Positions 42,602 to 52,591 of a stretch of DNA of 64,000 bases are shown here, piece by piece. The DNA is taken from NCBI RefSeq assembly GCF_008274695.1, contig NZ_VTOU01000001.1:1054001-1118000 (forward strand), given 5' to 3'. The notes below the pieces were generated by a model that was not told the origin of the DNA, did not search any database, and was given only the letters and a program-made list of their open reading frames with translations. This DNA comes from Sphingomonas montanisoli. Its GTDB lineage: Bacteria; Pseudomonadota; Alphaproteobacteria; Sphingomonadales; Sphingomonadaceae. The number at the start of each line of letters is the position of its first letter. The first letter of the stretch is position 1. The translations under genes and the position numbers were made by a program.

Positions 42602-45559
42602 TCAGAAATCCATCGACACGCCGAAGCGGACCTGGCGCGGCGCCTGATAGCTGGTCACCCTGCCATAATTGGGATCGGGGTTGCCGCCGTCGTCCTCGCC
42701 ATATTCGCGAAGATCGAGCTTCGACTTCCAGTTGAAGACGTTGAACACGTCGGCGCGTAGCTGGAACGATTTTAGCCCAGCGATCTTGACGGTGTAGGAC
42801 AGCGACAGATCGATCTGCTTCAGCCAGTCGCTTTCCAGCGCCTTGCCGCGACCGACAAGCCGGCCGTTGCAATACCAGGACGCCGACGTGTCGGTAGCCG
42901 CGCGGCCCGCGCCGCCCAGCGCCTCGTCATAAACGCCGATACAACCGAACTTGCGCGGGCTCTGTAGCCGCGCGAAGCCGCCGAGCTGAATCTGATCGGT
43001 CACCGCATAGGCGCCGTAGAGCTTGAAGGTGTGGCGGCGGTGGTTCGGCAGATAGCCATTGGCGCCGTCCATCCAGCCGGGCTCGTCGAAGTCCTGCGTC
43101 AGTCCGGTATCGTCCTGCCCGTTGTCGGACTTCACCCCGCCTTCGTAATTGCCCTTCAGGCTCGACCAGACATAGCTGCCCGAAAGCTGCCAGGTGCCAT
43201 CCCAGGTACGATCGAAATTGGCCTCTGCCGCCCAATATTTGCGCTTGGCCTTGGGCAGATCGACGATCGCGGCGGGGATGGTGATCTGGGTCAGCTGACC
43301 GTTGCCGGTCAGATCAACATTGATGATCGCGTCCTTGCCCGGATTGAGCAGTACATAGCCGCCCGATCCGTACGATGCCGGCACCGCATTCGGGTTACAC
43401 CCGGGCATATTCTGCGTCGCGCAGAAATTGGCGATCGTATAGCCGAGGTCGGTATCCTCGAGCACGCTCTTGAGGTTGCGGTGGGTGAGGTTCAGGCCCA
43501 CGCGCCACCGTTCGCCGATCCGCTGATCCACGCCGATCATGAACTCGTCGAGATATTGCGGCTTAAGGTTCTGCGAGGTCAGCGTGCGCGGATCGGAGCC
43601 CGCACTATCGGACAGGACCTGGAAGCTGACCTCCCGGCCCAGCGTCGGCAGGCGGGTGGCGGGATCGACCCCGTTCAGGATGTTGAAGGCGCGCGTGAAA
43701 TATTCGTTGCCCGCCATCCGAATGTTCGTGTTGGCGGCGACCGGCAGGTAATAGCGGCCGAAGAATCCCGACAACTTGGTCCTCTTGTCCCCGAACAGAT
43801 CGTAGGTCGCGCCCAGGCGTGGCGCCCACTGATTCTTGAGCTTGGTGAACACCTCGCCCGAGGCGGTGCGGTTTTCGAAGGTCTCGTTGCGGACGCCCAG
43901 GCTCAGGTTGACCCGGTCGTTCACGTCCCAATTGTCCTGCAGGTAGAAGGCGGTGTTCTGCGCCTTGAACGCGCCGGCGCGGTCGAGATACTGGACGCGG
44001 ACATAATCGGTGTTCGCCGGGATCAACCCATTGAGCGCGCCCGTGGCCCCCGCCCGCAGATAGCGATAGGAAACGCCGCCCGAATAGGTGGTCGACACGC
44101 GCGAGGACAGATCCTCGCGGTCGACGCCGAAGCGGATGTGATGTTCGCCCAGCAGGTGGGCCAAGATGTCGACGTCGGCGCGATAGAGTTCGCGACGATC
44201 CGCACCGCTGTCGAGCGTCGCATCGGGATGGCCCGCAATTTGCACCGCCGTGCCCGAACGCTGATCGACGATATAGGGCTGCGTGCTCGACGATGTCTGA
44301 TCCGCATCGGTGCGACCGTAGAGCGCCGAGATGGTCAGCCAGTCGGTGATGTGGCCGGTATATTTGCCGATATAATTGTCTCCGCCGACCGACACTCTGT
44401 ACGGCGTCACCAGATCGGGCACCGCCCCTGACAGCACCCGCGTGCGGATCGTGCCTTCTTCCGCATTGCTGTTGTTGAAATAGGTAAATTCCAGGCGGTG
44501 ATCCTCGGTCACGTCGAAATCGATCTTTCCGCCGAAGAATGGCTTCTTCGACTTGGCGAAGGTTTCGGTCACCGAACCGTTGATCGGCTGGGTCGCGTCG
44601 AACTCGCTGCGGTAGCGCGGGTTGAAGAAGCCGAAGAAGTAGAGCCGATCCTTGATGATCGGACCCGAGGCCCAGAGATTGCCCTCATAATCCTGTCGCT
44701 TGTCGCGATCATTGTTCGAAATGTAGGTGTCGCGCGCCCGCGACCGGAGGCCGCTGGGCGACCAGTAGGCGTTGAAGCCGCCAGCATAGTCGTTGCTGCC
44801 CGACCGCGTCAGCGCGATCACCGCACCGCCGGTCGCGCGGCCGAATTCGGCCTGATAGCCGCCCGTCTTGATCTGCACCTGATCATAGAACTGGAACGGC
44901 ACCAGACCGCCGCCCAGGAAGGTGCGGAAGTTGGTGATGTTCATGCCGTTCACATAATAAATGTTCTCGGCCACCGAACCGCCCGACAACGCGACGTTGG
45001 TGCCACCCGTCAAACTGTTGAACGCGCTGTCGCCCGCCGTCGTCTGCGGCGCGAGCAGCTGGAGCGCGGCCACGTCGCGCGCGATCGGCACGCGATCGAA
45101 GGTTTCCTTGACGTCGATGACGAGGCCGGTCGCCGATTGCGAGAAATCGAGCTCACGCGCCTTGGCGGCGGTGACGATGATCGGCGCGCCATCGACTTCG
45201 GCCAGTTTCACGACAAAGCTCGATCCGCCCAGCGCGACCATCGCGCCGGTCATCTCGACTGCGCCGACGCCCGCCTTCTCGGCCTTGAGCGTGTAGCTGC
45301 CGACAGGAAGCTGCACGACCGAGAAGGAGCCATCGGGGCCGCTGGTGACGGTGCGGCTGAGAGCGCGCGCATCAGCACTGACGGTGATCGTCGCGCCGCC
45401 TACGGGAGCGCCCGTAGGATCGACCACCTGTCCGCTGATCGCGGCCGAGCTGATATCCTGCGCGTGCGCCGGGCTGATCGGTGCCAGTGCGGCACAGGCC
45501 GACAGGACCGAACCGCCGCCCAATAGTGCGCGGAGGATCAGGGATCGTGAAAGGTTCAT
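42602..45559 (-). CDS. TonB-dependent receptor with carboxypeptidase regulatory-like domain (Oar-like)
   Basis: A 985-residue outer-membrane receptor. The signal peptide gives way to a CarboxypepD_reg-like fold (AAISGQVVDPTGAPVGGATI and SGPDGSFSVVQLPVGSYTL, residues ~38-115), then a TonB box region (IIVTAAKARELDFSQSATGL), plug (VAENIYYVNGMNITNFRTF, GGYQAEFGRATGGAVIAL) and a barrel ending YQAPRQVRFGVSMDF. ATG 45559 is chosen over in-frame upstream starts because the signal peptide begins there. The Oar-like layout is often linked to protease-dependent or peptide/glycan uptake. It is divergent from a LytS/LytTR pair, and the shared gap contains AlgR-type boxes. Confidence 0.92.
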   Translation of the reverse strand: MNLSRSLILRALLGGGSVLSACAALAPISPAHAQDISSAAISGQVVDPTGAPVGGATITVSADARALSRTVTSGPDGSFSVVQLPVGSYTLKAEKAGVGAVEMTGAMVALGGSSFVVKLAEVDGAPIIVTAAKARELDFSQSATGLVIDVKETFDRVPIARDVAALQLLAPQTTAGDSAFNSLTGGTNVALSGGSVAENIYYVNGMNITNFRTFLGGGLVPFQFYDQVQIKTGGYQAEFGRATGGAVIALTRSGSNDYAGGFNAYWSPSGLRSRARDTYISNNDRDKRQDYEGNLWASGPIIKDRLYFFGFFNPRYRSEFDATQPINGSVTETFAKSKKPFFGGKIDFDVTEDHRLEFTYFNNSNAEEGTIRTRVLSGAVPDLVTPYRVSVGGDNYIGKYTGHITDWLTISALYGRTDADQTSSSTQPYIVDQRSGTAVQIAGHPDATLDSGADRRELYRADVDILAHLLGEHHIRFGVDREDLSSRVSTTYSGGVSYRYLRAGATGALNGLIPANTDYVRVQYLDRAGAFKAQNTAFYLQDNWDVNDRVNLSLGVRNETFENRTASGEVFTKLKNQWAPRLGATYDLFGDKRTKLSGFFGRYYLPVAANTNIRMAGNEYFTRAFNILNGVDPATRLPTLGREVSFQVLSDSAGSDPRTLTSQNLKPQYLDEFMIGVDQRIGERWRVGLNLTHRNLKSVLEDTDLGYTIANFCATQNMPGCNPNAVPASYGSGGYVLLNPGKDAIINVDLTGNGQLTQITIPAAIVDLPKAKRKYWAAEANFDRTWDGTWQLSGSYVWSSLKGNYEGGVKSDNGQDDTGLTQDFDEPGWMDGANGYLPNHRRHTFKLYGAYAVTDQIQLGGFARLQSPRKFGCIGVYDEALGGAGRAATDTSASWYCNGRLVGRGKALESDWLKQIDLSLSYTVKIAGLKSFQLRADVFNVFNWKSKLDLREYGEDDGGNPDPNYGRVTSYQAPRQVRFGVSMDF

Positions 45560-45752
45560 CTTGCTTAAGCCCCAATGATGGCTGTCGCGGCCCTCCCGGC
45601 CCGCGCGCATCCGTTCTGATTGTCGATTGTCCGGCGCATGCTTCTTTCGCACTCTGCGCCGATCAAACTGAGGCATTGCTAAGCTGGCGCCGAAGCAGCC
45701 GGTAAGATGCGACGCGACGAAGAGGCGCGGCACGCTTTCAACGGCGAAGCTG

Positions 45753-45786
45753 ATCGACGAACGGCACGACGCATCGACGAACGGCA
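45753..45786 (-). promoter_or_regulatory. Two identical direct repeats matching the AlgR box
   Basis: ATCGACGAACGGCA occurs at 45753-45766 and 45773-45786. On the minus strand each contains CCGTTCGTC, the AlgR consensus, at 45756-45764 and 45776-45784, 20 bases apart, i.e. about two helical turns, the spacing usual for LytTR dimers. They lie in the 254-base gap between the TonB receptor (minus) and the LytS/LytTR operon (plus), 28-60 bases before the kinase start. Confidence 0.65.
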
Positions 45787-45813
45787 ATCGACTTCGCCGC
45801 TTGTGGATGGGAC

Positions 45814-46965
45814 ATGGCCTTCATGGGCCAAGATGCTGTTCCCAATAACGGAATCGATCATAGCAGGCGGAGCATTCCGGCCGATCATGGCCTGTTGTTC
45901 GCGCTGATCGCGATCTACTGGGTCGCGTTCCAGTTCATCTATTGCGTCTATTATGTGCTGACCGATCCCGAATATCTGGGGCTCAAGGCGCTCGAGGATT
46001 ATTCGCTGATCGGCTTCGCGATCGATTATGCGATCTTCTTCCTGCAGCCGGTCGAGCTTCTGTGCTGCGCGTTCGGGGCGCTGATCTGCTACGCCATCTA
46101 TATGGCGATCCACGCGGGTCGCGGCTGGCGGCTGCGCTGGCAGTTGCTCTCCGCCATAGCGGCGATGACGGCCGGCGCCTGCGCTTTCACCCTGCTCACC
46201 AACCTGTCTGTCAACCTGCTGCTGCATCCAGAGCCAATGACGTTGATCCGCTTCATGCGCGGATCGATCGTCTGGCTTGCCCCGATCGGTCTGTGGGCCG
46301 GCGCGGCCCTGGCTTTCGCCTATAATGGCGAGATGCGCGAGCGCGAGCGCCAGTTCGCGCAGCTTGAAAGCCAGGCGCATGTCGCGCAGATCCGCGCGCT
46401 GCGTTTCCAGGTTAATCCGCACTTCCTGTTCAACACGCTCAACTCGATCTCCGCCCTGATCCTCGACGGGCGCAGCGGCGATGCCGAACGGATGCTCCTC
46501 GCGCTTGCCACCTTCTTCCGCACCACGCTGGACGGCGATCCCTTGCGCGACGTGCGGCTGGCGGACGAGATGGCGCTGCAGCGGCTCTATCTGCAGATCG
46601 AGCAGGCGCGCTTCGGCAGCCGTCTGCGCGTTAACATCGATCTGCCGCCCGCGCTGGACGAGGCGCGGCTTCCCGGCCTCCTCCTCCAGCCACTCGTCGA
46701 AAATGCGATCCGCCACGGCATGTCGGACGGACGCAAGCGGCTCAACCTCCACATCGGCGCACGCGAAAATATGCAGGATCTGATCATCGAAGTGCGCGAC
46801 GACGGCGCGGGCATGGACACGCGCGCGCCTGTCGGCACCGGCGTCGGGCTCGACAATGTCCGCCAGCGACTGACCGCGCGCTTCGGCGATCGCGCTCAGG
46901 TTCGCGCGGTCGCGTCCACCCACGGCTTCGGCGTCGAACTCACCATGCCGCTGGTGGCCGCCTGA
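45814..46965 (+). CDS. LytS-type sensor histidine kinase
   Basis: A 383-residue membrane kinase. The N-terminal half has about four hydrophobic segments (LLFALIAIYWVAFQFIYCVYY, IDYAIFFLQPVELLCCAFGAL, AIAAMTAGACAFTLLTNLSV, GSIVWLAPIGLWAGAALAFA) and no recognised sensor domain. A short coiled coil (ERERQFAQLESQAHVAQIR) leads to the His_kinase motif LRFQVNPHFLFNTLNSI (His near 203) and a GHKL ATPase with QPLVENAIRHG and DDGAGMD, GVGLDNVRQRL. It phosphorylates the LytTR response regulator encoded next, with a one-base overlap (TGATG). The start is ATG 45814 or the nearby ATG 45823. Confidence 0.92.
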   Translation: MAFMGQDAVPNNGIDHSRRSIPADHGLLFALIAIYWVAFQFIYCVYYVLTDPEYLGLKALEDYSLIGFAIDYAIFFLQPVELLCCAFGALICYAIYMAIHAGRGWRLRWQLLSAIAAMTAGACAFTLLTNLSVNLLLHPEPMTLIRFMRGSIVWLAPIGLWAGAALAFAYNGEMRERERQFAQLESQAHVAQIRALRFQVNPHFLFNTLNSISALILDGRSGDAERMLLALATFFRTTLDGDPLRDVRLADEMALQRLYLQIEQARFGSRLRVNIDLPPALDEARLPGLLLQPLVENAIRHGMSDGRKRLNLHIGARENMQDLIIEVRDDGAGMDTRAPVGTGVGLDNVRQRLTARFGDRAQVRAVASTHGFGVELTMPLVAA

Positions 46966-47777
46966 TGTCGGCCCCGCTGCGCGTCCTCGCGGTCGATGAC
47001 GAGCCGCTGGCGCTTCGCCGGCTTGAAATCGCGGTCAACCATATGGACGAAGCGCGCCTGATCGGCACCGCGAGCGACGGGCCGGAAGCGCTCGACGCGA
47101 TCGCGCGGCTTGATCCCGACGTCGTGCTGCTCGACATCCGCATGAATGGGATGACCGGTTTCGACGTCGTCGGTGCGCTTTCGGGCGAGCGCGCCCCGCA
47201 GGTCGTGTTCGTCACGGCCTATGACGCCTTCGCCACCCGCGCGTTCGAGGTGAGCGCTGTCGATTATGTCCTCAAGCCCGTCGACTTCGATCGCCTCCGC
47301 GCCGCCTTCGCGCGTTGTCGCGAGCGGATCCACGCCGCCGACGCCGAAGGGCGCGAGGCCGAACTGCGCGCGTTGATCGAAGCATTGCGCGCACCCAGCC
47401 GCGCGCTGGAGGTGCAGGACCGCTACGAGCGCGAGATCTGGGTGCAGCGGCGCGGCGAGTTCGTCCGCCTGAATGTCGACGACATCGAATGGGTGGGTGC
47501 CGAGCGTGACTATGTGCGGCTCAACAGCGGTGATGGCGGCTTCCTGTTGCGCGAAACGATGGCCGGGATGATGACGCGGCTCGACCCCGAACGCTTCCTG
47601 CGTGTTCATCGATCGACCATCGTCCAGCGCCAGCGGATCGAAAGCCTGCTCCCCGCCGGTTACGGTCGCTTCCGCGTGCGCCTGACATCGGGCGTCGAAC
47701 TCAACGTCGGCCGCCTCTATTCGGCAGACATCAAGGCGATCCTGTCGCCCTCCGGAAAATCGCACTTCGCGCATTGA
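46965..47777 (+). CDS. LytTR/AlgR family response regulator
   Basis: A 270-residue two-component regulator. Receiver domain at the N-terminus: acidic pocket VDDEP, phosphoacceptor Asp57 in VVLLDIRMNG, Thr/Lys in FVTAYDAF and YVLKPVDFDRL. After a helical linker, a LytTR DNA-binding domain (WVQRRGEFVRLNVDDIEWV, RDYVRLNSGDGGFLLRETM, FLRVHRSTIVQRQRIESL) fills residues ~165-265. It overlaps the kinase stop by one base. The nearby AlgR-type repeats are its most likely target, giving control of itself and of the divergent TonB receptor. Confidence 0.93.
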   Translation: MSAPLRVLAVDDEPLALRRLEIAVNHMDEARLIGTASDGPEALDAIARLDPDVVLLDIRMNGMTGFDVVGALSGERAPQVVFVTAYDAFATRAFEVSAVDYVLKPVDFDRLRAAFARCRERIHAADAEGREAELRALIEALRAPSRALEVQDRYEREIWVQRRGEFVRLNVDDIEWVGAERDYVRLNSGDGGFLLRETMAGMMTRLDPERFLRVHRSTIVQRQRIESLLPAGYGRFRVRLTSGVELNVGRLYSADIKAILSPSGKSHFAH

Positions 47778-49769: not shown

Positions 49770-50156
49770 TCAATGATCGAAGGCGGCGATGATCGGGCAC
49801 GGCCCGGCGCCGCCCTTCGCGCAATCCTTCGTCAACCGCGACAGCGAGGCGCGTGCCGCCTGTAATTCTTCGATCTTCAGGTCGATCGCCGCGATCCGCG
49901 CCCGCGCAAGTTCGCGCGCCCGCGCCCGATCGTCGACCGCGTCCAGCCCCAGCAACTCGCCAATCTCCTCCAGCGTGAAGCCCGCCGACTGCGCCGACCG
50001 CACGAAGCGCAGCCGCCGCACATCCTCATCACCGTAACGGCGCACGCCATCGCCGCGCGCCGGCTCCGTCAGCAGCCCGCGCCGCTGATAATAACGGATC
50101 GTTTCGACGCCCACGCCGCCCTTTGCCGCCAGCTTCCCGATCGTCAGCCCGTTCAC
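49770..50156 (-). CDS. MerR family metal-responsive regulator (CueR-like)
   Basis: A 128-residue regulator beginning at GTG 50156. The MerR DNA-binding domain is clear (TIGKLAAKGGVGVETIRYYQRRGLLTEPAR), then a long dimer helix and a C-terminal metal loop with Cys112 and Cys120 (CAKGGAGPCPII), the same spacing as in Cu(I) sensor CueR. Residue 77, Ser in monovalent-ion sensors and Cys in divalent sensors, is Arg by my alignment. It is divergent from the Grx-MauE/CopA/CopB operon, and the promoter between them has MerR spacing. It most likely activates that operon in response to copper or a related soft metal. Confidence 0.9.
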   Translation of the reverse strand: MNGLTIGKLAAKGGVGVETIRYYQRRGLLTEPARGDGVRRYGDEDVRRLRFVRSAQSAGFTLEEIGELLGLDAVDDRARARELARARIAAIDLKIEELQAARASLSRLTKDCAKGGAGPCPIIAAFDH

Positions 50157-50159
50157 GCC

Positions 50160-50190
50160 TTGACTCCGTACTATGGTACGGCACCTATAG
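50160..50190 (+). promoter_or_regulatory. MerR-type promoter with 19-bp spacer
   Basis: TTGACT (50160-50165) and CTATAG (50185-50190) are separated by 19 bases, the over-long spacing that MerR activators correct. The spacer contains a perfect dyad CCGTAC-TATG-GTACGG (50166-50181). The half-sites equal those of the Tn501/Tn21 mer operator (CCGTAC-N4-GTACGG) rather than a typical CueR box. It reads toward the Grx-MauE gene at 50232. Confidence 0.85.
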
Positions 50191-50231
50191 GGGTCGGGTC
50201 CGATCCATCGCAAGGCCGACGAGACCCGCAT

Positions 50232-50786
50232 ATGACCGCCCATCCGCCCAGGCAGGCGACGCTCCACCGCATGGTGATGCCGACCCACATCTGCCCCTAT
50301 GGCCTGAAGGCCAAACACCTGCTCGAAAGCCGGGGCTACACGGTCGACGATCGCTGGCTCACCACGCGCGCCGAAACCGATGCCTTCAAGGCCGAACATG
50401 GGATGCGCGCGGGCGAATGGTTCATCTCGATCAGCATGTGCGTGCTGGCGCTGCTCAAGCTGCAGTATGTCGAGCGCTTCGCGACCATGTTCCTGAATTA
50501 CGATCTGCTCGCACGCCGCTGGGTGCCCTATTCCTACGCCTATCCCTTTGCCGAGGGCGCGGCAGGCGTGCTGATGACGGCGGGCGTGCTGACGTGGCTC
50601 TCGGCACCCATCGCGCTGGTCATCGGCGGGATCGGCGCGGTATCGGTGTTCAAGGCCGTCTATATCGACAAGCGCGAGATCAAATGCGCCTGTGTGGGCG
50701 GTTCGAGCAAGGTGCCGCTCGGCTTCGTGTCGCTGGTCGAAAATCTGATGATGGTGGCAATGGCAATCTGGATGCTCGTCAAGTGA
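50232..50786 (+). CDS. Glutaredoxin/MauE-DoxX-like redox membrane protein, internally shortened
   Basis: A 184-residue protein. The N-terminal part is the first half of a glutaredoxin-like domain (VMPTHICPYGLKAKHLLESRGY, CPYG at residues 21-24; only one Cys). After EHG at residues 55-57 it runs straight into a MauE/DoxX-type membrane domain (AGEWFISISMCVLALLKLQ, TMFLNYDLLARRWVPYSYAY, CACVGG). Homologues I know carry about 65 more residues here: the rest of the glutaredoxin fold and the first membrane helix. It is the first gene of the CueR-regulated operon; the next start overlaps its stop (GTGA). Role: thiol/disulfide handling in copper stress, inferred from context. Confidence 0.8.
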   Translation: MTAHPPRQATLHRMVMPTHICPYGLKAKHLLESRGYTVDDRWLTTRAETDAFKAEHGMRAGEWFISISMCVLALLKLQYVERFATMFLNYDLLARRWVPYSYAYPFAEGAAGVLMTAGVLTWLSAPIALVIGGIGAVSVFKAVYIDKREIKCACVGGSSKVPLGFVSLVENLMMVAMAIWMLVK

Positions 50787-52591
50787 ACCGGCCGATGGTG
50801 GATCGCCGCGCGATCCTGCGTGGGTCGCTGGCTCTCGGCGGCATTGCCGCGTTCATGCCCGCCTGGGCCCAGCCGGTGTCCGAAGGGCTGCCCACCGTCT
50901 CGGGCGAGGATATCACGCTGCGCATCGCGCGGCAGGTGATGACGATCGACGGCCGCCGATCGCCGGCTGTCGGGATCAACGGCACCGTCCCCGCCCCGCT
51001 GATCCGGCTGCGCGAGGGGCAGAATGTCCGCCTCAACGTGATCAACGAACTCGACGAGGACAGCTCGCTCCACTGGCACGGCCTGCTGCTGCCGCCCGAA
51101 CAGGACGGCGTGCCCGGCGTCTCCTTCCCCGGCATCAGGCCGCGATCGAGCTATCTCTACCAATTCCCGGTGCGGCAGAACGGCACCTATTGGTATCACA
51201 GCCATTCGGGCTTTCAGGAACAGATCGGCCTCTACGGCCCGATCATCATCGATCCCGCCGGCGCCGATCCGGTCGCCGCCGATCGCGAGCATGTGATCCT
51301 GCTGTCCGATCACAGCCAGTTGTCGCCCGAGGCGATCTTCCACCGGATGAAGGTCAATCCCGGCCACTTCAACTTCCAGCGCCAGACATTGTCGGGCCTG
51401 ATCGGCGATCGCGACCAGAGCCTAAAGGATCGGCTCGCCTGGGGCGCGATGCGGATGGACCCGGCCGATATTTCGGACGCGACGGGTGCGGCCTACACCT
51501 ATCTGATCAACGGCCACGGCCCCGCCGACAACTGGACGGCCCTGTTCACGCCGGGGCAGCGCGTGCGCCTGCGCGTGATCAACGCATCGTCGATGACCAA
51601 CTTCAACGTCCGCATCCCCGGCCTGCGGCTCACGGTCGTGCAGGCCGACGGGCAGAATGTGATGCCGGTCGAGGTCGACGAGTTTCAGATCGGCGTCGCC
51701 GAAACCTATGACGTCATCGTCACCCCGGCCGAGGACCGCGCCTTCACCTTCGTCGGCGAGGCGGTCGATCGATCGGGCATGGCGCGCGCCACGCTCGCTC
51801 CGCGCGCGGGCATGGTCGCCCCCGTCCCCGCGCTCCGCCCCCGTCCGCTCGCCACGATGCGGGACATGGGGATGGACATGGGCGGTGAGGCCGCGCCCCG
51901 CGCCGTCGATCCCAGCGCCGAACAAAATGCCTCGCGCAAGTTGGCGACGACCACCGAAGCCCCTCCACCCCACGCCGGCATGGATCACGCCGCGATGGGC
52001 CACGGCGGCCACGACATGGGCGGCATGAACCACGACATGGCGATGCGCGACTTCGCCAATGCCCCGCAGGTGAAGCGCGGGCCGGGCGTCCAGACCCTAT
52101 CCCCCATGCCGGTCGATCGCACCGGCGATCCGGGCCAGGGCCTCGCCGATGTCGGGCACAAGGTGCTGGTCTATCGCGACCTGATGGCGCTCGATCGCAA
52201 CCCCGACGTCCGCGCCCCTTCGCGCAGCATCGACATCCACCTGACCGGCAATATGGAACGTTTCATGTGGTCGTTCGATGGGGCGAAGATGTCCGACGTG
52301 CACGAACCCATCCCCTTCGTCGAAGGGGAGCGGGTGCGCGTGAAGCTGATCAACGACAGCATGATGGCGCACCCCATCCACATTCACGGCCACTTCTTCG
52401 AACTGGTGACCGGCCACGGCGATCATGCCCCGCGCAAGCACACCGTGATCGTCCAGCCGGGCGGGATCGTCACGTGGGATTTTACCGCCGATGCCGTGGG
52501 CGACTGGGCGTTCCACTGCCACATGCTCTACCACATGGCGGCCGGGATGATGCGCGTCGTGAGCGTTCGTCCGAAGGGGGATGCGGCATGA
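50783..52591 (+). CDS. copA: Multicopper oxidase, copper resistance protein CopA
   Basis: A periplasmic copper oxidase of about 600 residues. The twin-arginine signal (VDRRAILRGSLALGGIAAFM) fits export of a folded cupredoxin. Copper ligands seen: HWHG near residue 97, WYHSHSG near 137, HPIHIHGH near 530 and HCHMLYHM near 578, i.e. T1 and trinuclear sites complete. A Met/His-rich stretch (MRDMGMDMGG, HAGMDHAAMGHGGHDMGG) typical of CopA lies near residues 360-420. GTG 50783 overlaps the previous stop; ATG 50795 is an alternative start. It oxidises Cu(I) and sequesters copper. The stop overlaps the copB start (ATGATG). Confidence 0.95.
   Translation: MNRPMVDRRAILRGSLALGGIAAFMPAWAQPVSEGLPTVSGEDITLRIARQVMTIDGRRSPAVGINGTVPAPLIRLREGQNVRLNVINELDEDSSLHWHGLLLPPEQDGVPGVSFPGIRPRSSYLYQFPVRQNGTYWYHSHSGFQEQIGLYGPIIIDPAGADPVAADREHVILLSDHSQLSPEAIFHRMKVNPGHFNFQRQTLSGLIGDRDQSLKDRLAWGAMRMDPADISDATGAAYTYLINGHGPADNWTALFTPGQRVRLRVINASSMTNFNVRIPGLRLTVVQADGQNVMPVEVDEFQIGVAETYDVIVTPAEDRAFTFVGEAVDRSGMARATLAPRAGMVAPVPALRPRPLATMRDMGMDMGGEAAPRAVDPSAEQNASRKLATTTEAPPPHAGMDHAAMGHGGHDMGGMNHDMAMRDFANAPQVKRGPGVQTLSPMPVDRTGDPGQGLADVGHKVLVYRDLMALDRNPDVRAPSRSIDIHLTGNMERFMWSFDGAKMSDVHEPIPFVEGERVRVKLINDSMMAHPIHIHGHFFELVTGHGDHAPRKHTVIVQPGGIVTWDFTADAVGDWAFHCHMLYHMAAGMMRVVSVRPKGDAA

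Follow-up and report, generated by a model that had tools for sequence, protein, structure and literature searches.

The window considered here is a 64-kb (64,000-nucleotide) stretch of the Sphingomonas montanisoli genome (G000 among the genomes compared). In it, the gene of an Oar-like TonB receptor (oar) lies divergent from an operon for a LytS-type sensor histidine kinase and a LytTR response regulator. The 254-bp region between oar and the kinase gene contains two copies of ATCGACGAACGGCA, identical at 14/14 positions and 20 bp apart from start to start (Table 1). Each copy includes the 9-mer CCGTTCGTC on the minus strand (45756-45764 and 45776-45784). The divergent genes, the repeats at 45753-45786 and the 9-mer in both copies were found exactly as the preliminary description of this DNA had given them. 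The pair, referred to below as the box, is a predicted operator of a LytTR-type response regulator, quite probably of the one encoded next door. The receptor scored over cut-off for PF13620, PF25183 and PF00593, with no Plug match among the matches listed, and has the N-terminal carboxypeptidase-regulatory-like domain and the TonB-type barrel of an Oar-type protein; a domain set of this kind is taken here as defining Oar. In the regulator, the LytTR signature FhRhHRS is present as FLRVHRS, and the best NCBIfam models, BtsR and LytR, both scored under their cut-offs.

Table 1. Features of the oar/kinase locus, in window coordinates
Feature	Position	Strand	Basis or remark
Box copy proximal to oar, TGCCGTTCGTCGAT	45753..45766	minus	sequence, repeat count, alignment
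Second box copy, identical, 20 bp off	45773..45786	minus	sequence, repeat count, alignment
ATCGAC element, kinase side of boxes	45787..45792	plus	alignment with relatives
Possible degenerate third phased copy, CGTTGAAAG	45735..45743	minus	5/9 match to core; weak; same in G006
Divergent oar/kinase intergenic region	45560..45813		254 bp
Oar-like TonB receptor (carboxypeptidase-regulatory-like domain and OMP_b-brl_4/TonB-dependent barrel)	42602..45559	minus	domain scan
LytS-type sensor histidine kinase (His_kinase PF06580 and HATPase_c)	45814..46965	plus	domain scan
Response regulator, receiver and LytTR DNA-binding domain	46965..47777	plus	domain scan

Taken alone, the 9-mer is near chance in the window (4 occurrences against 1.15 expected, with 4/100 shuffles reaching 4). 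The repeat is rare. The window holds no other 14/14 direct repeat with a period of 18-24, and such a repeat arose in 0/1000 dinucleotide shuffles of the intergenic region. The 13-mer TCGACGAACNGCA has 14 copies in the whole genome, and the sole two spaced by 20 bp are those of the window pair. The same pair is the only site of the genome with fewer than two mismatches in a scan allowing up to three over both halves. A 9-bp core, CGTTCGTCG, is repeated with 11 bp between the copies. This is the layout of a LytTR operator, in which direct repeats of about 9-11 bp stand about two helical turns apart.

A known LytTR site consists of two or three direct repeats of 8-11 bp separated by 10-13 bp (PMC4847170, PMC11347149). 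The operators of YpdB, AgrA, CoxC and RcoM are direct repeats like that of the window, and YpdA/YpdB is likewise a LytS/LytTR pair. The window-type repeat differs from these operators in its unit, GCCGTTCGTCG, and in the UrcA and TonB-receptor-like genes that such boxes face elsewhere. In the preliminary description, each repeat was said to contain the known AlgR site. The 9-mer is indeed identical to the AlgR core of Pseudomonas aeruginosa (PMC4064291). The AlgR label rests on this 9-mer only: unlike the AlgR box, the window site is a strict 20-bp pair, and the two were compared only by motif and LytTR domain. A text search of the literature for the 9-mer returned, among the matches listed, an AlgR review as the only relevant item.

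Of the 39 other related genomes examined, which include 13 of the same genus, G006 alone has a close orthologue of the window regulator (96%). In G006 the same receptor (96%) is divergent from the kinase, and no sampled genome apart from these two has the gene pair. G006 is therefore the one genome in which loss of the repeats beside a retained gene pair, named beforehand as grounds for giving up the proposal, could be seen. G006 retains both repeats; its copies differ at two positions, agreeing at 12/14 in the frame of the window and at 13/14 one to two bases along. More distant loci, collected for the similarity of their regulators and independently of the motif, show the same arrangement. 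These are Sphingomonas cavernae (locus L065; also G218 and L194, treated as the same record), its congener G264 (L195) and a Caulobacter metagenome-assembled genome (L066), with regulators 53-55% identical to that of the window. The box lies before the kinase gene in the first two and in the gap between kinase and regulator in the Caulobacter genome. The loci of the relatives align as CGAC(G/A)AACGG-N10-CGA(C/T)GAA(C/T)G with ATCGAC on one side. This element is the same in G006, S. cavernae and G264 and reads ATAGAC in Caulobacter. In the family sample and the Caulobacter genome, LytTR regulators at least 50% identical to that of the window are conserved together with the site.

No Oar was found by tblastn at the S. 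cavernae, G264 and Caulobacter loci. In S. cavernae and G264, the kinase gene is preceded by one that is TetR-like by reading and runs in the direction of the kinase, so that the operator there hardly serves a divergent gene. The same two loci carry two LytS/LytTR pairs flanking the TetR-like gene, the box of the second pair being more degenerate; a GH18 gene adjoins one pair and an autotransporter-like gene (by eye) lies past the other. Homologues of the window Oar with 34-45% identity are present in 9/96 other genomes (11/98 with G000 and G006 included). Neither kinase nor regulator was found in the flanks of about 4-6 kb at these nine loci (L177-L185; the L182 flank ends with its contig about 0.5 kb upstream of the receptor). 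No box with up to three mismatches occurred at the nine loci; two 4-mismatch matches lie near the start of the L178 receptor. The box appears from these comparisons to track the regulator, not Oar. The idea of an Oar-specific control module as a general rule was rejected, since the nine loci have neither regulator nor box.

The box was also sought in 397 genomes of the family with two patterns, a plain pair of 18 fixed bases with at most one mismatch and an extended pattern of 24 fixed bases, each with the reversed pattern as control. The extended pattern with up to three mismatches was found in 12/397 genomes (reversed control 0), and with at most one mismatch only in G000, G006, G218, G264 and G117. 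Among the regulator matches listed (E<=1e-62), an identity of at least 50% occurred only in G000, G006, G218 and G264; in G117 a LytS/LytTR pair lies 0.5 kb from the box. The plain pair gave 48 matches in 44 genomes against 10 for its control. Two G423 matches overlap, which leaves 47 distinct sites. All were examined with their surroundings, usually about 6 kb on each side; contig ends cut this short in cases such as L282 (3.6 kb in all), L290 and L319. The box pair of G000 and G006 was absent from viral contigs. A further locus outside the set of 47, L247 (G269), has a LytS/LytTR pair and a reading frame that looks UrcA-like by eye; its box was found only by the extended pattern with three mismatches.

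At 14/47 sites, a LytTR domain is encoded within 2 kb together with a LytS-type kinase, while 0.27 would be expected even for 3 kb, given four LytTR genes per 4.1 Mb. After removal of the four pattern-defining genomes, 10/43 sites are still beside LytS/LytTR pairs. These belong to five genera and are not fully independent, since five of the ten are in one genus. The repeats could in principle belong to an unrelated regulator or have no function. This is very improbable in view of the association with LytS/LytTR pairs, of the excess over the control and of the occurrence of the box in separate lineages, even though the 9-mer by itself is close to its chance frequency in the window and 16/47 boxes elsewhere have no clear target.

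The target side of a box is defined as the strand reading CGTTCGTCG, the orientation seen toward oar. An UrcA-family gene follows the box by about 87-171 bp on this side at 12/47 sites, with TIGR04433 over cut-off in 12/12. The twelve belong to five genera, and eight of them adjoin a LytS/LytTR pair. Five sites (L249, L282, L288, L302, L303), not counting the two at oar, face a TonB-receptor-like gene 43-106 bp away. All five products have a Plug or barrel domain over cut-off, and three of the sites are in one genus. Four sites of the genus of the window (L250, L305, L306, L308) have a box with 0 or 1 mismatch 57-61 bp before a gene of a small membrane protein, with a LytTR gene about 28-33 kb off on the same contig in each case; the L250 protein, the one of the four scanned, matched no family over cut-off. 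Single sites face an RcnB (L283), an S41-peptidase (L287) and an M16-peptidase (L296) gene. A 2-mismatch site in G000, with its orthologue in G006, precedes another TonB-receptor-like gene by about 65 bp; the domain matches of this gene stay under the curated cut-offs.

On the other strand, a kinase start is found 30-80 bp from the box at 6/47 sites (window, G006, G218, G264, G313 and G216), the start codons having been chosen by the authors. In G004 (L304), this kinase-type side carries a TonB-receptor gene. In the window, 30 bp separate the 29-bp repeat core from the kinase ATG, and 195 bp separate it from the ATG of oar. The regulator would bind as a dimer to the two copies of GCCGTTCGTCG, presented 20 bp apart on one face of the DNA. 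From this operator it may act on the kinase-regulator operon, by a placement common to relatives where Oar was not found. It may also act on oar, by an orientation common to the UrcA and TonB-receptor-like sites. Control of both its own operon and oar by the adjacent regulator would be the most economical model.

Autoregulation is as likely as control of oar, because six boxes are placed 30-80 bp before a kinase start. The box might even serve the kinase-regulator operon alone, oar being a divergent bystander. In G313, G216, G218 and G264, the upstream neighbour (TetR-like in G218 and G264, other genes in G313 and G216) runs in the direction of the kinase and no divergent target was seen, and the Oar-homologue loci lack the box. 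Autoregulation as the only function is nevertheless rather unlikely, as the 12 UrcA and 5 TonB-receptor-like sites face another gene in the oar-type orientation; their starts are 43-171 bp from the box, oar being somewhat farther off.

The preliminary description suggested that the two-component system directly controls oar. The LytTR site architecture, the retention of the box with the regulator and the oar-type orientation at UrcA and TonB-receptor-like genes speak for this part, while boxes beside kinase genes without Oar and the six just before a kinase start speak against it. Regulation of the TonB receptor by this system is plausible and has comparative support. As to the main target among oar and the kinase operon and the sign of control, we infer rather than observe. 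Activation of oar is a guess, made because most LytTR-type regulators are described as activators that bind upstream of the -35 region (PMC11347149).

The fine structure of the box was compared at 13 representative target-side sites, hand-picked from 23 to remove near-duplicates. Before CGTTCGTCG, G stands at -2 in 12/13 and C at -1 in 10/13 of them. Outside the pair, the sites most resemble the core at offset -21 (mean 4.62/9), followed by +41 (3.92), against a background of 2.44 +/- 0.55. A degenerate copy at +41 would agree with columns T47, G49 and A50 (10, 11 and 10 of 13), but other columns, e.g. G60 (11/13), are equally common. In the window, the flanking copies are weak, with 5/9 matches each at -20 and +40. 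Further degenerate phased copies perhaps stand beside the pair and might also be bound by the regulator.

On the protein side, an A[ED]RDY loop is present in 21/32 LytTR domains, many of the loci having been fetched because of the box. Among the loci not chosen by the box, a box with at most one mismatch was found in 3/10 with the loop (L066, L194, L195) and in 0 of the others; flanks in this set were short (about 1.5 kb) for L007-L034, and some loop labels were assigned by reading. A role of the loop as a specificity determinant is suggestive only. A profile of nine LytTR domains matched one chain in the PDB (3d6w), which is not AgrA.

The loop also bears on which regulator binds. The paralogous regulator of the C10 locus of G000 (L200) shares the A-E-R-D-Y loop of the window regulator, as do UrcA-adjacent regulators, and members of the genus without a window-type regulator carry boxes (G003, G004, G009, G010, G013). 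The box might thus be bound mainly by this paralogue, with the window operon having joined its regulon. This is unlikely, because all four genomes with a regulator relative of at least 50% identity have the box next door and none turned up at distances of up to 4 kb from the L200 regulator.

Binding by the adjacent regulator, the reading preferred here, has to be set against several observations. The L200 paralogue could be the binder by virtue of its loop, and a perfect box occurs with a different loop at L285. No box was found at the more distant regulator relatives G434, G235, G373 and G343 (L196-L199, 43-47% identity), so that conservation of regulator with site does not extend to this range; L197 and L199 carry different 21-bp repeats. 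In Phenylobacterium (L067, regulator 50%), there is only a 2-mismatch site, behind the regulator gene. The Oar-homologue loci lack the box, and several of the 16 boxes with no clear target lie inside coding sequence, though a few of the 16 (e.g. L284, L311, L313) have an unscanned downstream reading frame. An alignment of the window with G006 shows 3 changes over the 34 bp of the repeat block and 11 over the 27 bp between the boxes and the kinase ATG; over the 254 bp of the entire intergenic region, substitutions number 35 and gap positions 4. Pairwise conservation alone is therefore weak evidence, because the block is little better kept than the intergenic region as a whole. Finally, a simple scan of the 254-bp region gave no sigma70-type promoter.

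The idea that a sigma70 promoter stands at a constant spacing from the boxes was rejected on the same scan. A -35-like TTGAAA (45741-45736) lies about 21 bp past the centre of the proximal box and falls inside the putative third copy; no convincing -10 was seen after it on reading the intergenic sequence. The region has one weak terminator-like stem at 45621-45636 (+), with 0.2 expected. Just past oar is a BTLCP-type transglutaminase-like cysteine proteinase gene (PF06035, 41561-42220, -), and another BTLCP-type proteinase gene (L200:6407-7039, -) directly follows the paralogous LytTR pair at C10. Genes for a MerR regulator, a MauE-like protein and a multicopper oxidase lie at 49770-52591, about 2-5 kb downstream of the LytTR pair, and are a possible metal context. 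Among relatives, the LytTR regulators of L196 and L197, which lack the box and are 45-47% identical to that of the window, have TonB receptors next door.

In Caulobacter crescentus, the system UzcRS controls urcA, TonB-dependent receptor and metallopeptidase genes (PMC8963506). Its targets overlap the gene classes faced by window-type boxes, namely UrcA, TonB-receptor-like, M16, S41 and RcnB. The UzcR motif, CATTAC-N6-TTAA (PMC8963506), is unlike the box, and no match to it with up to one mismatch was found in the window, which shows no UzcR-type site. In the literature searched, which mostly excluded subscription journals, no description of LytTR control of UrcA or of Oar/TonB receptors was found. 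The papers listed for TonB-dependent receptors with Sphingomonas were genome papers, and the one listed for such receptors with a response regulator and direct repeat was a Flavobacterium genome comparison; judging by these listings, none describes such control. The main text of a review of sphingomonad TonB transporters contained neither 'LytT' nor 'two-component' in a term search.

The overlap of the box-faced gene classes with the UzcRS target list suggests that sphingomonads may have an envelope or metal response run by LytTR regulators. Tentatively, a LytS/LytTR family of the Sphingomonadaceae with one operator code (two copies of GCCGTTCGTCG, 20 bp apart) might control UrcA proteins, TonB receptors, peptidases and RcnB-like proteins as one envelope-surface regulon. 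Such a family would be the counterpart of the Caulobacter UzcRS on another operator, and the window system would be a branch with a captured Oar receptor. The box provides a concrete candidate operator sequence for sphingomonad LytTR regulators, with predicted targets that include TonB receptors and UrcA proteins, and an AlgR-like box is seen to recur as a phased pair in alphaproteobacteria. From the matching sites in relatives, a small group of cell-envelope genes may be controlled by two-component systems of this kind. If the UrcA link is true, a two-component family that has been little studied would be connected with metal or envelope stress.
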